Positions 19,804 through 29,111 of a stretch of 46,144 nt of DNA are shown here, piece after piece; positions within the stretch are counted from its first letter, which is position 1; each line of letters opens with the position of its first letter. Source of the DNA: Fibrobacterota bacterium (GTDB lineage Bacteria > Fibrobacterota > Fibrobacteria > UBA11236); contig CANKII010000001.1 of NCBI GenBank assembly GCA_947482115.1, positions 641,840-687,983 on the forward strand. The letters are read 5' to 3'. A model generated the notes under the pieces. That model searched no databases. It saw only the letters and a list, made by a program, of their open reading frames with translations, and was not told the DNA's origin. A program made the translations under genes and the position numbers.

Positions 19804-21306
19804 ATGAATTTCTTCTCTCGGATTCATCTTGCTCTCATCGCTCAGCTTTGTTTCATCGCACCATTATCAACCCACGCGCAGTTTGTTCAACAAGGAAACA
19901 AACTGGTCGGCATCGGTGCTGTCGGTACTGTACATCAGGGCCAATCCGTCGCCATCTCTGCTGACGGTAATACCGCGATAGTTGGTGGTAACGGCGATAA
20001 CAACACTGCTGGAGCAACTTGGGTGTTTACACGTTCCGGTGGAGTGTGGACACAGCAAGGAAACAAACTGGTCGGCACCGGTGCTGTCAATGTTGCACGA
20101 CAAGGCCTATCCGTTGCCATTTCTGCTGACGGCAACACCACTGTCGTGGGCGGTCCTCTGGACAACTACGATACTGCAAATTATTCGTACAGAGGAGCAA
20201 CTTGGGTATTTACACGTACCAATGGAATTTGGACACAGCAAGGAAACAAACTGGTCGGCACGGGCGCAGTCGGGGGTGCATATCAGGGCCGATCCGTCGC
20301 CATCTCTGCTGACGGTAATACCGCAATAGTTGGTGGTAACGACGATAACAACAATGCTGGAGCAACTTGGGTGTTTACACGTTCCGGTGGAGTGTGGACA
20401 CAACAAGGAAGTAAGCTGGTCGGTACAGATGCGATCGGTTTGGCTAATCAAGGTTGGTCCGGATCCCTTTCTGCTGACGGCAATACCGCAATCGTGGGTG
20501 GTTTTGGCGACAACGACGGTGTTGGAGCCGTGTGGGTGTTTACACGATCTGCTGGAGTGTGGACAGAGCAAGGAAGTAAACTGGTCGGCACGGGTGCTGT
20601 GAGTACAGCACGCCAAGGCTATTCCGTTTCCATTTCCTCAGACGGCAATACGGCCCTCGTGGGTGGTTATTACGACAACAATTATACTGGAGCAATTTGG
20701 GTGTTTACACGAACGGGTGGAGTTTGGACGCAGCAAGGAAGTAAACTGGTCGGCACGGGCGCAGTCGGGGGTGCATATCAAGGCACCTCCGTCGCAATTT
20801 CCGCTGACGGCAATACGGCCCTCGTGGGTGGTAACGACATTACTGGAGCTGTTTGGGTATTTACACGAACGGGTGGAGTTTGGACGCAGCTGGGAAGCAA
20901 GCTGGTCGGCACGGGCGCAGTCGGGGGTGCATATCAAGGCACCTCTGTCGCAATTTCCGCTGACGGCAATACGGCCTTCAGCGGGGGGGAGGGTGATAAT
21001 GGGGGTGTTGGAGCAGCTTGGATTTTTTCACGCCCGGCGGTTCCAATCTTATTTTCGTCAGCCAAATCCAAGCTTCAACGTTTGAATCTCGAAAACAATC
21101 AATTATTGCATTTCAATCTTTCCAACCAATCACAAGTCACCATTCGTTTATACGATTCCAAAGGCGCAGTCGTAAAAACTCTGCTGAATGAAGTTCGATC
21201 CGCAGGAGATTATTTGCAACCCTTGCCCAAAGAAACGAAATCAAACTCCTATTTGCTGGATTTCAAAGCGGGCGAGTTTCACAAAACGATGAAAATTGAT
21301 CCTTAA
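19804..21306 (+). CDS. Secreted seven-repeat beta-propeller with sorting-like tail
   Basis: A 500-residue exported protein. After a signal peptide ending near THAQ come seven units of about 50 residues with the consensus TQQGNKLVGTGAVG, SVAISADGNTAIVGG and GATWVFTRSGGVW, an FG-GAP-like propeller pattern. Units 6 and 7 are almost identical at DNA level (about 20735-20825 and 20891-20977), a sign of recent duplication. The C-terminal ~85 residues (QVTIRLYDSKGAVVKTLL...YLLDFKAGEFHKTMKI) match the tail of the protein at 7834-9042. A GAGGT Shine-Dalgarno precedes the ATG. Function is unknown; likely a cell-surface or secreted binding protein. Confidence 0.85.
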   Translation: MNFFSRIHLALIAQLCFIAPLSTHAQFVQQGNKLVGIGAVGTVHQGQSVAISADGNTAIVGGNGDNNTAGATWVFTRSGGVWTQQGNKLVGTGAVNVARQGLSVAISADGNTTVVGGPLDNYDTANYSYRGATWVFTRTNGIWTQQGNKLVGTGAVGGAYQGRSVAISADGNTAIVGGNDDNNNAGATWVFTRSGGVWTQQGSKLVGTDAIGLANQGWSGSLSADGNTAIVGGFGDNDGVGAVWVFTRSAGVWTEQGSKLVGTGAVSTARQGYSVSISSDGNTALVGGYYDNNYTGAIWVFTRTGGVWTQQGSKLVGTGAVGGAYQGTSVAISADGNTALVGGNDITGAVWVFTRTGGVWTQLGSKLVGTGAVGGAYQGTSVAISADGNTAFSGGEGDNGGVGAAWIFSRPAVPILFSSAKSKLQRLNLENNQLLHFNLSNQSQVTIRLYDSKGAVVKTLLNEVRSAGDYLQPLPKETKSNSYLLDFKAGEFHKTMKIDP

Positions 21307-23581: not shown

Positions 23582-24718
23582 ATGCCTTTCCATTTTTCGG
23601 ATCGCTGGCAGGATTCCGATCCCACTCCAAATGCCCTGACTGAAGCCATCGCCGCCCGTAAAAAATCGGGACAACCCATTTTTGATTTAACCGCATCCAA
23701 TCCCACCCAATGCGGAATCGTTTATCCCGACTGGACATCGCTACTGAATCAATCGTCCGTGCAAACCTACGATCCACATCCACAAGGAAACCTCAAAGCA
23801 CGGGAGGCCATTGCTCAATATTATGCGGAACGAAGTGAAAGGGTCGCCCCATACGACCTTTTCCTAACCGCTGGTACTTCGGAGGGTTACGCCCACCTAT
23901 TCAAGCTGCTTTGTGACCCGGGCGATGAGGTTTTGGTGTCTTCACCTTCCTATCCCCTGCTCGAAACATTGGCATCCCTTGAAGGAATTCAAATCCGCTC
24001 CTATTTCGATCTCAAATCCCTTAAAGCCAACCTCACCGAGAGGACTCGCGCCATTTTTTTGGTTCAGCCCAACAATCCCACAGGTCATGTTCTTTCAAAG
24101 AATGATGCGGATTATCTCGTGCACATTGCGGAAGAAAAAGGCTTGGCCTTGGTGGTCGATGAGGTCTTCGCCGATTTTCTTTACAACTCAAACATACTGC
24201 CTTTATTGCATTCCAAAAAATCCCTTGTGTTCACCTTGAACGGGCTTTCCAAACTTTTGGGATTGCCGCAATTAAAACTCGCATGGATTCATGTGGATGG
24301 AGAAACGTCACTCAAGGCTCGTGCAAAAAAACACCTCGAATGGATTTGCGATGCTTACCTGAGTGTCAGCACGGCTTCACAGGCTGCATGCCCGGAATTG
24401 TTGGAACGCCGGTTGGATTTTCAAATACCGATTCAGGAGCGTTTGGAAACCAATCTTTCCACCCTTCGTGAAGTGGCGAAAGCAAATCCTCAAATCGAAC
24501 CCCTGTGGCCACAAGGCGGCTGGTGCATTCCGGTTCGTTGCAAGGGCGTGGAGGACGATGAAGCTTTTGCCCTGGAGTTATTGGAAAAGCACGGCGTATT
24601 GGTTCACCCGGGTTATTTTTTCGACTTCGAAGAGGAGGATGTAGTGGTTTTGAGCCTCTTAATCGAGCCCACCGTATTTCGTGAAGGACTTGCTCGCTTG
24701 CTTCCATTCGGCAAATAA
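23582..24718 (+). CDS. PLP-dependent class I/II aminotransferase
   Basis: A 378-residue fold-type I aminotransferase. Visible are FDLTASNPTQCG, the substrate/PLP region LFLTAGTSEGYAHLFKLLCDPGDEVLVSSPSYPLL, VQPNNPTGHVLS, the cofactor aspartate in LALVVDEVFADFLY, and the Schiff-base lysine Lys224 in NGLSKLLGLP. Family members transfer amino groups between amino and keto acids; the substrate cannot be assigned. The gene follows metF by 16 bases. Its last 106 bases overlap, tail to tail, the 3' end of the SGNH hydrolase gene on the other strand. Confidence 0.9.
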   Translation: MPFHFSDRWQDSDPTPNALTEAIAARKKSGQPIFDLTASNPTQCGIVYPDWTSLLNQSSVQTYDPHPQGNLKAREAIAQYYAERSERVAPYDLFLTAGTSEGYAHLFKLLCDPGDEVLVSSPSYPLLETLASLEGIQIRSYFDLKSLKANLTERTRAIFLVQPNNPTGHVLSKNDADYLVHIAEEKGLALVVDEVFADFLYNSNILPLLHSKKSLVFTLNGLSKLLGLPQLKLAWIHVDGETSLKARAKKHLEWICDAYLSVSTASQAACPELLERRLDFQIPIQERLETNLSTLREVAKANPQIEPLWPQGGWCIPVRCKGVEDDEAFALELLEKHGVLVHPGYFFDFEEEDVVVLSLLIEPTVFREGLARLLPFGK

Positions 24719-26112
24719 AAACTCTGGTCTTCTCCGGCGTTCCACAAAAGATTCGTTTTCCCGGTAATGCCCTTGTTGATTCCCACAATGGCAGGCGCAG
24801 AATGCCAAACCGAAGTATCGGCGCTCAGCGGGATAAGCGGATCGGAATCCGGATGTGTCGGATCAAAAGGTGTAACATCATCCGTCAGATAAGTTGCAAG
24901 AGCGGGAATTTTTGTCCGTACTCCATCCACCACACAGCGGGCCATTTCATAAGCGCCGTAGTCGGTAAAGTGAGTGACACTGTCCCAATACAGCGGCAAT
25001 GATCCCGCCAAACCCAACGTGCGGACAATACTCGCACTGCACCCGTTCAAGTCGATTAAAGTCACATTGCTGTCCGCTGCCACTTGCTTGAAGGCCGCGA
25101 GAAAATCCCCGACGCCTGCAGCACCGGCAGTGCCCGTGCCGATAAAACTATTAGCGCGCTCCTGCCCCGAAGAATCAAATTGACGGCGTACAGTAGGACT
25201 CACAAGTACCGGCGTCGCGTTTTTCAAACGGGCGGTATGGATAAAATTCCTTAAGTTGGTTTGATACGTCGCAATGGTCAGCGTCTTCATGTCATTGTGC
25301 GCGAACTCCGCAAACAGATAATCCCCTGACTTCATGAGACTGTTGATTTTCGAGAGACGATTCTGGGAAATAAAGGCGCTGGTAGTCAAACCCGATTCGG
25401 CTATGCTGGTAATTACCGCTCCCTGCTTGAAAAAGCTTGGAAACATCTGTCCCCATGCCGCCTCGGTTTCCGTGGCCCAGTCGCACATGGTGGAATTCCC
25501 GGCGAGGAAAACCTGAACAGGATTGACGGCCGGGGTGACTTCCATCGAAACCACGGAAGTGCGGGAACCGTTGAACTCGAAGGTGAGTTTATTGCCGTCC
25601 CAATTCAACCCCGCCGCTTCACGTGTGGTGATTCCAACCGTGCCGCCTCCCGTAATGGCCGTGTTGCGCCGGTTCACGGTGAATGTTTTGGTTGCGAACT
25701 GTCCCGCTGTAGTCTGTAAGTTGTGGAAAAACAACCGGCGGGATTCTGCCTTGAGCGTATTCGTCGTTGCGACAGAAGGATCCCCGAGCGTAACCGACAC
25801 ATTGTAATTGCCTTCGGGAAGGACGACGGAAAAGTAGAAGACGCCATTTTTGAAACAAAGATCGCTGAGCAAGGAATCTGCTCCGCCGCGATCGACACAG
25901 GAGGGTTGCAGGAGTTTGAAATCCCAGCCGTAGCCCTGAGTTGTGCTGTACAATGTTGTGGTCAGGATTTGTGTATATCCCGGTTTTACCGGACCCGACC
26001 CAAAGTCAAATTTGTAACTGGTGGTTTGCGCCTTTGGGTTCAAGACGCAAATTACGACAATGAATCCAGCGGTAAAAAGTTTATCGATAGCCGAAATTTT
26101 CAGGTTTGCCAT
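24613..26112 (-). CDS. Secreted SGNH/GDSL esterase, rhamnogalacturonan acetylesterase-like
   Basis: A 499-residue exported hydrolase. After a hydrophobic leader comes an N-terminal beta module (SYKFDFGSGPVKPGYTQI, GYGWDF) often paired with pectin esterases. The SGNH domain follows: block I AGNSTMCDWA with the nucleophile serine, an AHND block, and the Asp/His block WDSVTHFTDYGAYEMA. The family removes acetyl groups from pectin; the substrate is inference. ATG 26112 is preferred to the GTG 18 bases upstream. The final 34 or so residues (from YLPNGSKR, ending SSSSKSKK) are basic and are encoded antisense to the end of the aminotransferase gene. Confidence 0.85.
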   Translation of the reverse strand: MANLKISAIDKLFTAGFIVVICVLNPKAQTTSYKFDFGSGPVKPGYTQILTTTLYSTTQGYGWDFKLLQPSCVDRGGADSLLSDLCFKNGVFYFSVVLPEGNYNVSVTLGDPSVATTNTLKAESRRLFFHNLQTTAGQFATKTFTVNRRNTAITGGGTVGITTREAAGLNWDGNKLTFEFNGSRTSVVSMEVTPAVNPVQVFLAGNSTMCDWATETEAAWGQMFPSFFKQGAVITSIAESGLTTSAFISQNRLSKINSLMKSGDYLFAEFAHNDMKTLTIATYQTNLRNFIHTARLKNATPVLVSPTVRRQFDSSGQERANSFIGTGTAGAAGVGDFLAAFKQVAADSNVTLIDLNGCSASIVRTLGLAGSLPLYWDSVTHFTDYGAYEMARCVVDGVRTKIPALATYLTDDVTPFDPTHPDSDPLIPLSADTSVWHSAPAIVGINKGITGKTNLLWNAGEDQSFYLPNGSKRASPSRNTVGSIKRLKTTTSSSSKSKK

Positions 26113-26175
26113 GGCTTGAATATAAGCCACACCCCTTCAATCCGCCTGAAAAATCCGTCCTAAGAAATACGAGAA

Positions 26176-26715
26176 CTATTTGGATCCCTTCACCGGACCG
26201 CTTGGCAAGCCTTTCTCGGTAATCGCATGCTCCTGAGGTGTAGGCGGCTCTTCAGTAATCCCGCCCGTTCCCGTGCCTTTGGTATTGATGGCGTGATCCG
26301 CAGATGTCGTGGTACCACAATCCGCAGTATTGGGATCGCAGGGTTGCGCACTTACAGTCCCACTCTTCTCCAGTACATGCGGGAGTACAAAGGCTTTGCG
26401 GGTCGTATGTCCCTTTCCACCCTTGACTTTCGGGGTACCGCCTTCATCAATGGCAATCCCATTGACGCCGGGATCCCCAATGGCGATTTCAGCGCTCGGC
26501 TCCTGGGAACCATCAGCCGTCATGGATTTCGTGCGATTCGCCTTCTCCTTCGCCTTCATCTCAACGGCTCCGCTGTCGGAAGGCGCCGCAATCGATGATG
26601 TCTTGTTGCTGCGACTTGAATTATGATCCTGAGCTGCAAAAGGCGCTACCTGAAAAAACAAAGCCAAAGCGATCACTGAAGATCCCCTGGATGCTGTGAA
26701 GAATGAATTTTTCAT
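26176..26715 (-). CDS. Unknown secreted low-complexity protein, paralogue 2
   Basis: A 179-residue protein with a signal peptide (IALALFFQVAPFAAQ). The rest is polar and probably disordered. Blocks shared with its upstream neighbour (26782-27297) are AQDHNSSRSNKTSS, DHAINTKGTGT, GIAIDEGGTPK, TRKAFV-PHVLEKSG and the cysteine pair SAQPCDPNTADCG. The order of the blocks differs between the two. An AAAGGAATC Shine-Dalgarno region is shared by both genes. I do not recognise the family. The two cysteines may form a disulphide. It is exported, and its role is unknown. Confidence 0.75.
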   Translation of the reverse strand: MKNSFFTASRGSSVIALALFFQVAPFAAQDHNSSRSNKTSSIAAPSDSGAVEMKAKEKANRTKSMTADGSQEPSAEIAIGDPGVNGIAIDEGGTPKVKGGKGHTTRKAFVLPHVLEKSGTVSAQPCDPNTADCGTTTSADHAINTKGTGTGGITEEPPTPQEHAITEKGLPSGPVKGSK

Positions 26716-26781
26716 TTCGATTCCTTTCCGACAAAAGCCGAACGTCGTGGTTTGTTTAAAAACTGCTGGAACTAGCCTTGC

Positions 26782-27297
26782 TTACGGTGTACGCTTTCCT
26801 TCTTTGGCTCTTTTTTCAACCTGTTCACGGGTATCCCCTCCCTGTCCGGGCGGAGAGATGACATGGTCCTGAGGGGCGGAACCGCAATCAGCAATATTGG
26901 GGTCACATGGCTGGGCGCTTACACTTCCACTCTTCTCCAGTACATGTGGAACTACAAAAGCTTTACGAGTCGCATTGCCCTTGCCTTTGGGCTTGGGGGT
27001 TCCACCTTCATCAATGGCGATGCCAGCGGCGTCACCCCCGGACTCATCGGCAATTCCCGCCGTTCCGGTGCCTTTTGTGTTAATAGCATGATCCGTGGAA
27101 GTCGTAGCGCTGTCGGAAGGCGCAATACTCGATGACGTCTTGTTGCTGCGACTTGAATTATGATCCTGTGCTGCAGGCTGGCCACTCTCAGCAGCGGCAG
27201 TGCTATCCGCCATGGTTTTCGAAGCCGCAATCACACTGGATGTGCTCATGAAAACCAAAGCCAAGCCTGTGGATAATGTGAAAAGGGGGTTTTTCAT
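26782..27297 (-). CDS. Unknown secreted low-complexity protein, paralogue 1
   Basis: A 171-residue exported protein with a signal peptide (LALVFMSTSSVIAAS). It shares AQDHNSSRSNKTSS, DHAINTKGTGT, GIAIDEGGTPKPKG, TRKAFVVPHVLEKSGSVSAQPCDPN and ADCG with the gene 66 bases downstream, so the pair arose by tandem duplication followed by block shuffling. The ribosome-binding region AAAGGAATC is conserved too. The C-terminus is charged (EQVEKRAKEGKR). No family is recognised, and nothing in the neighbourhood fixes its role. Confidence 0.75.
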   Translation of the reverse strand: MKNPLFTLSTGLALVFMSTSSVIAASKTMADSTAAAESGQPAAQDHNSSRSNKTSSSIAPSDSATTSTDHAINTKGTGTAGIADESGGDAAGIAIDEGGTPKPKGKGNATRKAFVVPHVLEKSGSVSAQPCDPNIADCGSAPQDHVISPPGQGGDTREQVEKRAKEGKRTP

Positions 27298-27404
27298 TTT
27301 TGATTCCTTTCCGGCCCTACGCCGAGAATGTCATGGTCATGAATATAGCCCTGCGTTGAATCCTCACATGGTGATTCTGAACACATCCGGTCAAAACTCC
27401 GTTT

Positions 27405-28475
27405 TCAACCAAACAAATTCATTTGCAGGCTCACAGGAGGGGCCTTGACTTTCGGTACGGGTTGAATAGGCGGCTTGATTTTAGGCGTGATTTCCGCCAT
27501 TCTCTCGCTCCGGTTCAGCCCATTCTTGCGAATGTGAATGCGGAATAAATCCTCAATGATATCCGCCATCTGTCCTTCACCCTGAAACCGTTTGCCGAAC
27601 TCACTTCGATTCAAAACCCCGCCGCGCACCGAGCGGAGATGATGCTCCACTTTCCCAGCCCGTTCTGGAAACGAGGCTTGCAAGCGGGACATAAACACAT
27701 CCTTCACCGCTCCCGGTAATCTCAGCAAGGTGTAAAAAGCAAAGGAGGCTCCGCAGTCTTTCGCCCTCTTCAATAAATGAGGCATTTCACTATCGTTCCA
27801 TCCCGGAATAATAGGACTGATCGAAATCCCCGTTCGTATTCCCGCAGCGCTCAACTTTTCCAAGGCGTGAAACCGTGCATCGGGTGAAGAAGCGAATGGT
27901 TCAATGAGTCGCGCCTCCTCCGCATTTTCAAATGGGATGGATAGAATCACATTCGCGCCCGGACCCTTGGCCAATCCTGTTAGCACGTCGATATCACGGA
28001 CGATCAAGGCGGATTTGGTAATCACGCCTACGGAAGTATCATGCCGCAGACACGCTTCCAAACAACCCCGAGTCAATTTCAAGGCCCGCTCCGCAGGCTG
28101 GTAGCAATCCGTCACACCTGAGAAGACAATGGAATCCCCTTTCCACGAAGCCTTGGACAATTCTTTTTCCAAAAGTTCCGGCGCATTGATCTTGGCCACT
28201 ATGCGTGTATCGAAATCCGTTCCCGCACCCCAACCCAGATATTCGTGATAGGTGCGCGCGTAGCAATAAGCGCAGGCATGGGCGCACCCGCGATAAGGAT
28301 TCACCGAATGCCGAAAGGGAATATCAGGACTGTCATTGCGGGAGAGAATGCTTTTGGCAACTTCTCGATACACCCGCATCTCCTGCGGACGCTCCACGCC
28401 ATCTTCCCATTCGATGGAAAGGTTTTCAAAACGGTTATCCGGGTTGTCCGCCTCACGGCGGTAAAAACCGCCCAT
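27405..28475 (-). CDS. Radical SAM protein, SplB-like / PA0069 family
   Basis: A 356-residue radical SAM enzyme. The 4Fe-4S cluster cysteines are Cys64, Cys68 and Cys71 in YRGCAHACAYCYAR, the arrangement of the SplB-related family. Downstream are DSIVFSGVTDCYQPAE, LTRGCLEACLRH, VGVITKSALIVRDIDVL and GISISPIIPGWND, all usual for this group. The family uses SAM to generate a deoxyadenosyl radical; the substrate is not established for these homologues. A proline-rich tail ends the protein (PPIQPVPKVKAPPVS). It starts 6 bases after the redoxin stop, so the two are likely one operon. Confidence 0.9.
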   Translation of the reverse strand: MGGFYRREADNPDNRFENLSIEWEDGVERPQEMRVYREVAKSILSRNDSPDIPFRHSVNPYRGCAHACAYCYARTYHEYLGWGAGTDFDTRIVAKINAPELLEKELSKASWKGDSIVFSGVTDCYQPAERALKLTRGCLEACLRHDTSVGVITKSALIVRDIDVLTGLAKGPGANVILSIPFENAEEARLIEPFASSPDARFHALEKLSAAGIRTGISISPIIPGWNDSEMPHLLKRAKDCGASFAFYTLLRLPGAVKDVFMSRLQASFPERAGKVEHHLRSVRGGVLNRSEFGKRFQGEGQMADIIEDLFRIHIRKNGLNRSERMAEITPKIKPPIQPVPKVKAPPVSLQMNLFG

Positions 28476-28481
28476 GACTTC

Positions 28482-29111
28482 TTATCCTGCGGATTTGACC
28501 TGTGGGAACTTGGTGTATAGATAATCGAGATCGCAGGCATCGCCCGGCATCCAATGCGCGTCCATGTCCCACCATTTCACATTGCAGCCGATGGCATCCG
28601 TTTGCGGCAGCCGAATGGAACGGTTTGCGAGAAGATCCTCAATCGCATCCTGAAGTTCGTAAGTCTCAACCTTGGTCACATCGCGCGGGGAATTGTCCAT
28701 TCGCCCGGAATAAACCAACACTCCTTCAGCATTGAAAAGGAAATAATGCGGCGTGCGTTGTGCTCCGTAAGCGCGGGCTACGAATTGAGCCTCGTCATTG
28801 AGTGACAGCCACTTGAATCCCATTTCTTTCATGCGCACCAATGCGAGGGGAAACGTATCGGTGGGATGCCCCGCAGTTTCATTGGAGTGAATCGCAACCA
28901 TGGAAATTCCCATGGGCGTGATTCGATCGTACAGTTCTTTCATCCGGGCTTCACTACCTACAACATAGGGACAATGATTGCAGGTGAAAAAAATCAAGGT
29001 CCCATTCTTACCCTGTATGGAGATGTCTCCGCGAAACGAGTGATTTTTTCCATCGCTGCCGGGAAGTTCGAAGTCCGGAGCTTTGCTGCCGGTGGGAAGG
29101 GTAAAAGGCAT
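28482..29111 (-). CDS. Thioredoxin-fold redoxin (AhpC/TSA-like)
   Basis: A 209-residue cytoplasmic thioredoxin-fold protein without signal peptide. Features are GSKAPDFELPGSDGKNHS, the redox motif FFTCNHCPYV (Cys44, Cys47) and the cis-proline region GAQRTPHYFLFNAEGVLVY. Proteins of this type (CNHCPY redoxins) are usually annotated as thioredoxin-family proteins. Peroxidase or reductase activity is likely, but the partner is unknown. It is followed by the radical SAM gene after 6 bases. Upstream, a terminator isolates it from the small membrane-protein gene, so it should have its own promoter. Confidence 0.88.
   Translation of the reverse strand: MPFTLPTGSKAPDFELPGSDGKNHSFRGDISIQGKNGTLIFFTCNHCPYVVGSEARMKELYDRITPMGISMVAIHSNETAGHPTDTFPLALVRMKEMGFKWLSLNDEAQFVARAYGAQRTPHYFLFNAEGVLVYSGRMDNSPRDVTKVETYELQDAIEDLLANRSIRLPQTDAIGCNVKWWDMDAHWMPGDACDLDYLYTKFPQVKSAG

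Follow-up and report, generated by a model that had tools for sequence, protein, structure and literature searches.

Genes W1 and W2 of a Fibrobacterota bacterium belong to a family of probably exported block proteins, several of which carry a loop from Hcp, the tube protein of type VI secretion

Two neighbouring genes of a Fibrobacterota bacterium, here called W1 and W2, belong to an undescribed multigene family that has so far been found in three genomes of one genus. They lie in a window of 46,144 nucleotides, which is the whole stretch of DNA that was analysed (assembly GCA_947482115.1, contig CANKII010000001.1, positions 641,840 to 687,983 of the forward strand). Judging from sequence, we favour with moderate confidence the reading that the members are exported, largely unfolded strings of short binding motifs, displayed multivalently and reshuffled by duplication and conversion. 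Repetition of blocks, their permutation, their reuse across genes and wide synonymous divergence beneath conserved peptides were all seen directly.

Results

W1 and W2 are built from shared blocks in different order

W1 (window positions 26176..26715, minus strand, 179 aa) and W2 (26782..27297, minus strand, 171 aa) each encode a probably exported low-complexity protein. W2 is transcribed ahead of W1 (27297 to 26782, then 26715 to 26176) with a gap of 66 bases, and GGAAAGGAATC is found shortly 5' of the ATG of both genes. A radical SAM gene, assigned to the PA0069 family at 368.5 bits (cutoff 360), lies directly upstream of the pair on the same strand (27405-28475), and the same-strand ORF downstream matches Pfam AGA-YXIM_GBD above and Lipase_GDSL_2 below cutoff. 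An Rfam search of window positions 24000-29000 led nowhere. Elsewhere in the window, positions 19804-21306 encode a protein of 500 aa that begins like a signal peptide and contains WTQQGNKLVGTGAV...QG-SVAISADGNTA type repeats.

A preliminary description of this DNA had reported a tandem pair of secreted proteins with common blocks, and we located both minus-strand ORFs and every block that it named. The N-termini of W1 and W2 resemble Sec signal peptides when judged by eye, in agreement with that description. It had further called the protein bodies disordered and polar. The composition fits such a body, as the mature proteins (fixed cut at residue 25) contain 0 Trp and 0 Tyr, and ILVMFWY account for 14% of W1 and 11% of W2; the AlphaFold2 result (mean pLDDT 47, pTM 0.11) is weak evidence because the alignment had only two rows.

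Aligned globally, W1 and W2 share 57% identity. BLASTP returned a collinear match of 128 bits together with a second, non-collinear match of 42 bits that pairs W1 136-178 with W2 65-108. The best of 200 shuffles of the W1 residues reached 30.8 bits, which rules out a chance likeness. An assembly artefact is ruled out as well, since the contig that holds the window is 688 kb long and family members occur in three genomes; the order of radical SAM gene, family gene and esterase-like ORF also recurs on contig C59 of the related genome G002.

All blocks lie on the minus strand. Block A, AQDHNSSRSNKTSS, is the same peptide in W1 (26593..26634) and W2 (27130..27171), as had been stated, and with its preceding residue the DNA is 96% identical between the two copies. 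Close forms of it occur in the G002 member on C59 and in the member of genome G003. Both proteins also share GIAIDEGGTPK (W1 26428..26460; W2 26992..27024), the stretch RKAFV(L/V)PHVLEKSG and the cysteine pair PCDPN(T/I)ADCG (PCDPNTADCG in W1, 26314..26343; PCDPNIADCG in W2, 26881..26910), the latter two as previously noted. The block RKAFVLPHVLEKSG of W1 (26359..26400) has its counterpart in RKAFVVPHVLEKSG of W2 (26926..26967). An origin of RKAFVVPHVLEKSG as a decayed Hcp strand was not proven, and the likeness of RKAFVLPHVLEKSG to the Hcp strand after the loop was not significant, with 58 (W2) and 104 (W1) of 1000 shuffles scoring as high.

Block B, DHAINTKGTGT, indeed lies on opposite sides of the cysteine pair, at aa 140-150 after the pair in W1 (26266..26298) and at aa 69-79 before it in W2 (27061..27093). 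The permuted piece is larger than had been thought: it is a cassette of about 43 residues, longer than DHAINTKGTGT alone, that joins this block to one of the AI-E-G-P type and stands 3' of the cysteine pair in W1 and 5' of it in W2. W1 repeats the AI-E-G-P type block as EHAITEKGLPSG (26197..26232), which pairs with AIDEGGTPKPKGKG of W2 in the off-diagonal BLASTP match.

Neither protein matched a family in NCBIfam (E up to 1), PHROGs or PADLOC (E up to 0.1). With Pfam (E up to 1), W1 gave 0 matches and W2 one, far under its cutoff. The earlier statement that the pair fits no known family thus stands for W1 and W2 in all four libraries at cutoff, and is to be amended for the family as a whole, which its siblings tie to an Hcp loop (see below).

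Most blocks appear old and one tract recently copied

We compared codons at residues that are identical in W1 and W2. Synonymous differences were found at 7/13 codons of the DHAINTKGTGT block, 8/13 of the IDEGG block and 13/27 of the stretch from RKAF to the cysteines, the two unmoved blocks together giving 21/40. Within the genus, pS and pN were 0.81 and 0.035 for block B (5 copies), 0.71 and 0.126 for block C (12 copies) and 0.83 and 0.114 for block A (4 copies); low pN is partly a product of the choice of blocks, because they were picked for matching peptides, and high pS alone is independent of it. The codons of the blocks differ widely with the peptides kept, and therefore most blocks are old; so most of the W1/W2 pair would be old and peptide-constrained.

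One tract departs from this pattern. In AQDHNSSRSNKTSS with its preceding residue plus APSDS, 2/20 codons differ vs 28/53 elsewhere (Fisher p = 0.001, for blocks that were chosen with the sequences in view and a count that skips a few codons separating AQDHNSSRSNKTSS from APSDS). Because the DNA of this tract hardly differs between the two genes, its codons suggest recent copying between the neighbours by local gene conversion.

The different placement of the cassette had been taken to show rearrangement after duplication. The codons do not support that conclusion, as the moved block is as diverged (7/13) as the unmoved ones (21/40). Because its codons diverged like theirs, the change of position may date back as far as the W1/W2 pair itself. 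Rearrangement after duplication is one possibility only, and the placement is accounted for equally well if a repeated cassette was gained or lost.

A dispensable family with peptides kept

W1 and W2 are a tandem, as described, and they are more than a pair: searches found 8 family members in their own genome (G000) and 13 over three genomes. Besides W1 and W2, the own genome encodes P1-P5 in tandem on C1 at ~274.7-277.45 kb (locus L047; P1 6703-7221, P2 7257-7922, P3 7956-8453, P4 8468-8968, P5 9002-9451) and Q alone on C3 (158730-159425). G002 has 4 members, three on C80 and one on C59, and G003 has 1, on C62. No member was found in G001 (98% complete), where the radical SAM gene was the sole match at E 1. 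A scan of genome contigs with W2 returned 49 stretches and no relative, and a DNA pattern for block A with one fixed Gln codon choice gave no match. Those low-scoring matches in the sister genus, other than Hcp, of which the frames were read by eye were taken as noise.

With each of the 13 proteins cut at a fixed point after residue 25, the mature sequences have 0 Trp, 9-17% ILVMFWY and 42-54% PSTGNQ, and most siblings begin with a signal-like N-terminus by eye. Their blocks include an SN-rich one near the mature N-terminus of several members and a Cys pair or Cys cluster. P5 carries block E (I-G-I-V-KKNP) at its mature start, and the single chain of the G003 member combines three Hcp-loop blocks with DHNSSRSNKTAS and an AIKEQGLP block.

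The P1-P5 cluster follows a large ORF (L047 4230-6557) that looks by eye like an outer-membrane barrel, and the members on G002 C80 and G003 C62 follow similar ORFs (L050 7846-10681; L051 7742-10625), which in these two genomes are preceded by an ORF that is FecR-like by eye. The barrel-like ORF had no match above cutoff in Pfam and NCBIfam, and the FecR-like ORF of G002 had matches only far below cutoffs, FecR included. Carriage as phage or plasmid cargo was not supported, as tblastn at E 1 gave no match in 72,556 plasmids and 50,697 phages the queries being W2 and G2a in both sets and the L068 ORF in plasmids.

At the window locus, G002 has one family gene in the same place (L052 on G002:C59; L002 ~1470-1872), and it is interrupted by an in-frame TAG. 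This gene resembles W1 and has neither the Cys pair nor DHAINTKGTGT. G2b of the same genome (L050 6282-6977, C80) holds three Hcp-loop blocks and shows no clear signal peptide in frame. In G001 and G003, other ORFs stand beside the radical SAM gene, with no family member there. Because of the TAG in the G002 gene, G2b without a clear signal and the lack of any member found in G001, the family would seem to be dispensable.

The same defects and the patchy presence fit a non-adaptive history in which remnants of hcp and other genes were spread by duplication and have no present function. This reading has to contend with peptides that are kept against wide synonymous change, and with the state of the own-genome members, 8/8 of which are open, start with ATG and have a purine-rich stretch 5' of the start. 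We regard it as unlikely.

Several siblings carry a loop of Hcp, which forms the type VI tube

The commonest block among the siblings, of the PRDAASGQATGKRQHKP type, is a loop of Hcp. A loose pattern for it found 16 blocks in 8/13 family proteins, two of them (both in Q) rather divergent, and up to three per protein; among 267 mechanically called background ORFs the same pattern found only five Hcps. Residues 63-96 of P2 match positions 27-64 of PF05638 (34.5 bits for the protein, cutoff 23.5) and Hcp3 of PDB entry 3he1 (E 3e-5), and on the same stretch NCBIfam TIGR03344 gave 30.9 bits, under its cutoff of 58.9. No shuffle in 1000 reached the Hcp likeness of P1, P2, P3, P4, G2a, G2b or G3, and 2/1000 reached that of Q. 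For W1, W2, G2c, P5 and G2w the likeness lacked significance, as 104, 58, 337, 814 and 983 of 1000 shuffles, in this order, scored at least equally well.

The loop of P2 and the strand that follows it, SPRDHASGLPTGKRMHKPMVITKELDKS, are nearly identical in the Hcp of 9/9 sister-genus loci read, all of which carry SPRDAASGLPTGKRMHKPF(V/I)ITKE(L/M)DK. Unlike Hcp/TssD (PF05638, TIGR03344), the family has about 30 of some 160 residues, no barrel and a signal-like N-terminus, and it repeats the loop up to three times per chain. Of the full Hcp domain (~129 profile positions), the best P2 stretch covers only positions 27-64, and W1 and W2 had no PF05638 match.

The distribution of type VI genes differs between the genera. 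VipB (PF05943) was present in 6/6 sister-genus genomes and in G010, and was found in 0/4 genomes of the window's genus, one of which is 87% complete. Of the 6 sister-genus genomes, 5 have a full Hcp and the other (G007) has it split into two partial pieces, and that of G010 is full or nearly so; full-length Hcp was found in 0/4 genomes of the window's genus, G000 matching through the P2 fragment alone. The window's genus, which has smaller genomes than the sister genus, looks as if it had lost the type VI secretion system (T6SS).

Two papers touch on such loops. In Burkholderia pseudomallei Hcp1, an extended loop (Asp40-Arg56) makes ring-to-ring contacts, and this loop is little conserved among the Hcps compared there (PMC4650826); in avian Escherichia coli, part of the Hcp loop L2,3 is needed for effector delivery (PMC5874247). 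From its position we take the sibling block to be this loop, L2,3, and do so tentatively because PMC4650826 reports poor conservation of the loop among the Hcps compared.

These matches, the near-identical peptide in the sister genus, the up to threefold repetition of the loop, the presence of VipB and Hcp there vs their absence here, and the ring-to-ring contacts of Hcp1 would all suit a decoy function: members with repeated loops, coating or surrounding the cell, would bind incoming Hcp tubes or free Hcp rings of T6SS-armed relatives and spoil ring stacking, W1 and W2 being paralogues whose loop has diverged or been lost. Ring stacking happens inside the attacker, however, out of reach of a secreted decoy. 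The loop is also not significant in W1 and W2 and missing from P5, G2c and G2w, its conservation among the Hcps compared in PMC4650826 is low, and no T6SS connection is known for block A, B or E. We consider such decoys improbable.

Block peptides also turn up in other phyla

An exact scan for (D/E)H(A/V)INTKGTG in 84,980 species, with fewer than one chance match expected by a rough estimate from residue frequencies, returned five contigs, one being that of G002 and four belonging to MAGs outside the genus, labelled Paludibacter, Pirellula, Polymorphobacter and Sphingomonas (two of these being Sphingomonadales). All four outside copies lie in open frames, and L067, L068 and L069 have signal-like starts by eye. 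The Paludibacter copy, EHVINTKGTG, is part of a long repeat protein with RKGWDGSVKG and GINE-GIK units (L066, 6806-8000), the start of which falls outside the locus. Another carrier, L071, which has YAINTKGTG, comes from the Sphingomonas MAG too.

A second block of the family vocabulary was present in 3/5 carriers, namely block E in L067 and L071 and block A in L068 (KTRSNTKSN, cf. KTSKSNVSNN in P2), and in neither L066 nor L069; the patterns for blocks A and E, written after these sequences were seen, each matched 0/267 mechanically called background ORFs. The peptide is rare in its own phylum (2/167 genomes, both of the window's genus). It occurs in 1/396 genomes of the order of the Sphingomonas MAG, that MAG itself, and a looser pattern in 2/396 of the order of the Pirellula MAG, which are that MAG and one unrelated esterase-like ORF. 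Among the four MAGs outside the phylum, VipB was found only in the Pirellula MAG (G062).

Several further matches were taken as noise once their frames had been read by eye: the esterase-like planctomycete ORF of G837 (EHAINEKG), those in Sphingomonadales apart from the match of the query to itself, and four viral contigs whose (A/V)INTKGTG falls in unrelated ORFs. Because (A/V)INTKGTG occurs in these four viral ORFs, short blocks can arise by chance.

Discussion

Short likenesses to other known domains also occur in the family and its outside carriers. The mature part of P5 begins with IPGVDISAKKNPGG, as in CarboxypepD_reg (PF13620), and in the Pirellula carrier L067 a PF13620 match below cutoff has IKGISIVVKKNPG close to its start; unlike the domain, this is only a short strand-turn piece, and P5 has no domain match. 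Residues 38-56 of P2, around DCDGRADAPDC, recall the MopE Cu-binding motif (PF11617), although the match is weak, below cutoff (15.5 bits, cutoff 27), and confined to a single short copy.

Enzymes of the radical SAM class include peptide-modifying ones, and similar peptides repeated in an exported, unfolded chain, with a radical SAM gene directly upstream on the same strand that also adjoins a family gene in G002, could mark precursors from which proteases release the blocks, perhaps modified, as signalling or antimicrobial peptides; we find this quite improbable, as the name of the PA0069 family gives no function and does not designate a peptide maturase, G001 and G003 have the radical SAM gene with no adjoining family member, the GKR that ends many loop blocks belongs to the Hcp loop itself and was required for the list of 12 blocks, and block B has no basic pair.

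We return to the reading of multivalent motif strings, which the kept peptides and the reuse of blocks favour. A signal peptide would export the proteins, which would stay largely unfolded. Each protein would consist of short conserved peptides of about 10-35 residues, spaced by fast-changing stretches. The blocks would be binding motifs presented multivalently outside the cytoplasm, be it on the cell surface, in the periplasm or in the surroundings; tandem duplication and local gene conversion would reshuffle the motif repertoire, and selection on the motifs would maintain the family.

Disordered secreted proteins with short linear motifs are known among effectors acting in eukaryotic hosts. 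A literature search for the block peptide strings gave no result, and among the matches listed, from a library that lacks most subscription papers, nothing resembled a reuse of the Hcp loop.

We know of no bacterial family that reuses the Hcp loop outside Hcp. A far-reaching possibility, to which we give little weight, is that a lineage in which no type VI weapon was found secretes unfolded proteins that display the tube's loop along with peptides recurring in secreted proteins of other phyla, as a shuffled extracellular motif repertoire that meddles with competitors' Hcp tubes and with other partners. Through the Hcp loop of the siblings, a role as decoy or Hcp binder could be put to the test. 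Should the blocks bind partners, the family would offer a naturally occurring collection of Hcp-loop peptides and a legible example of gene conversion at the scale of single blocks.
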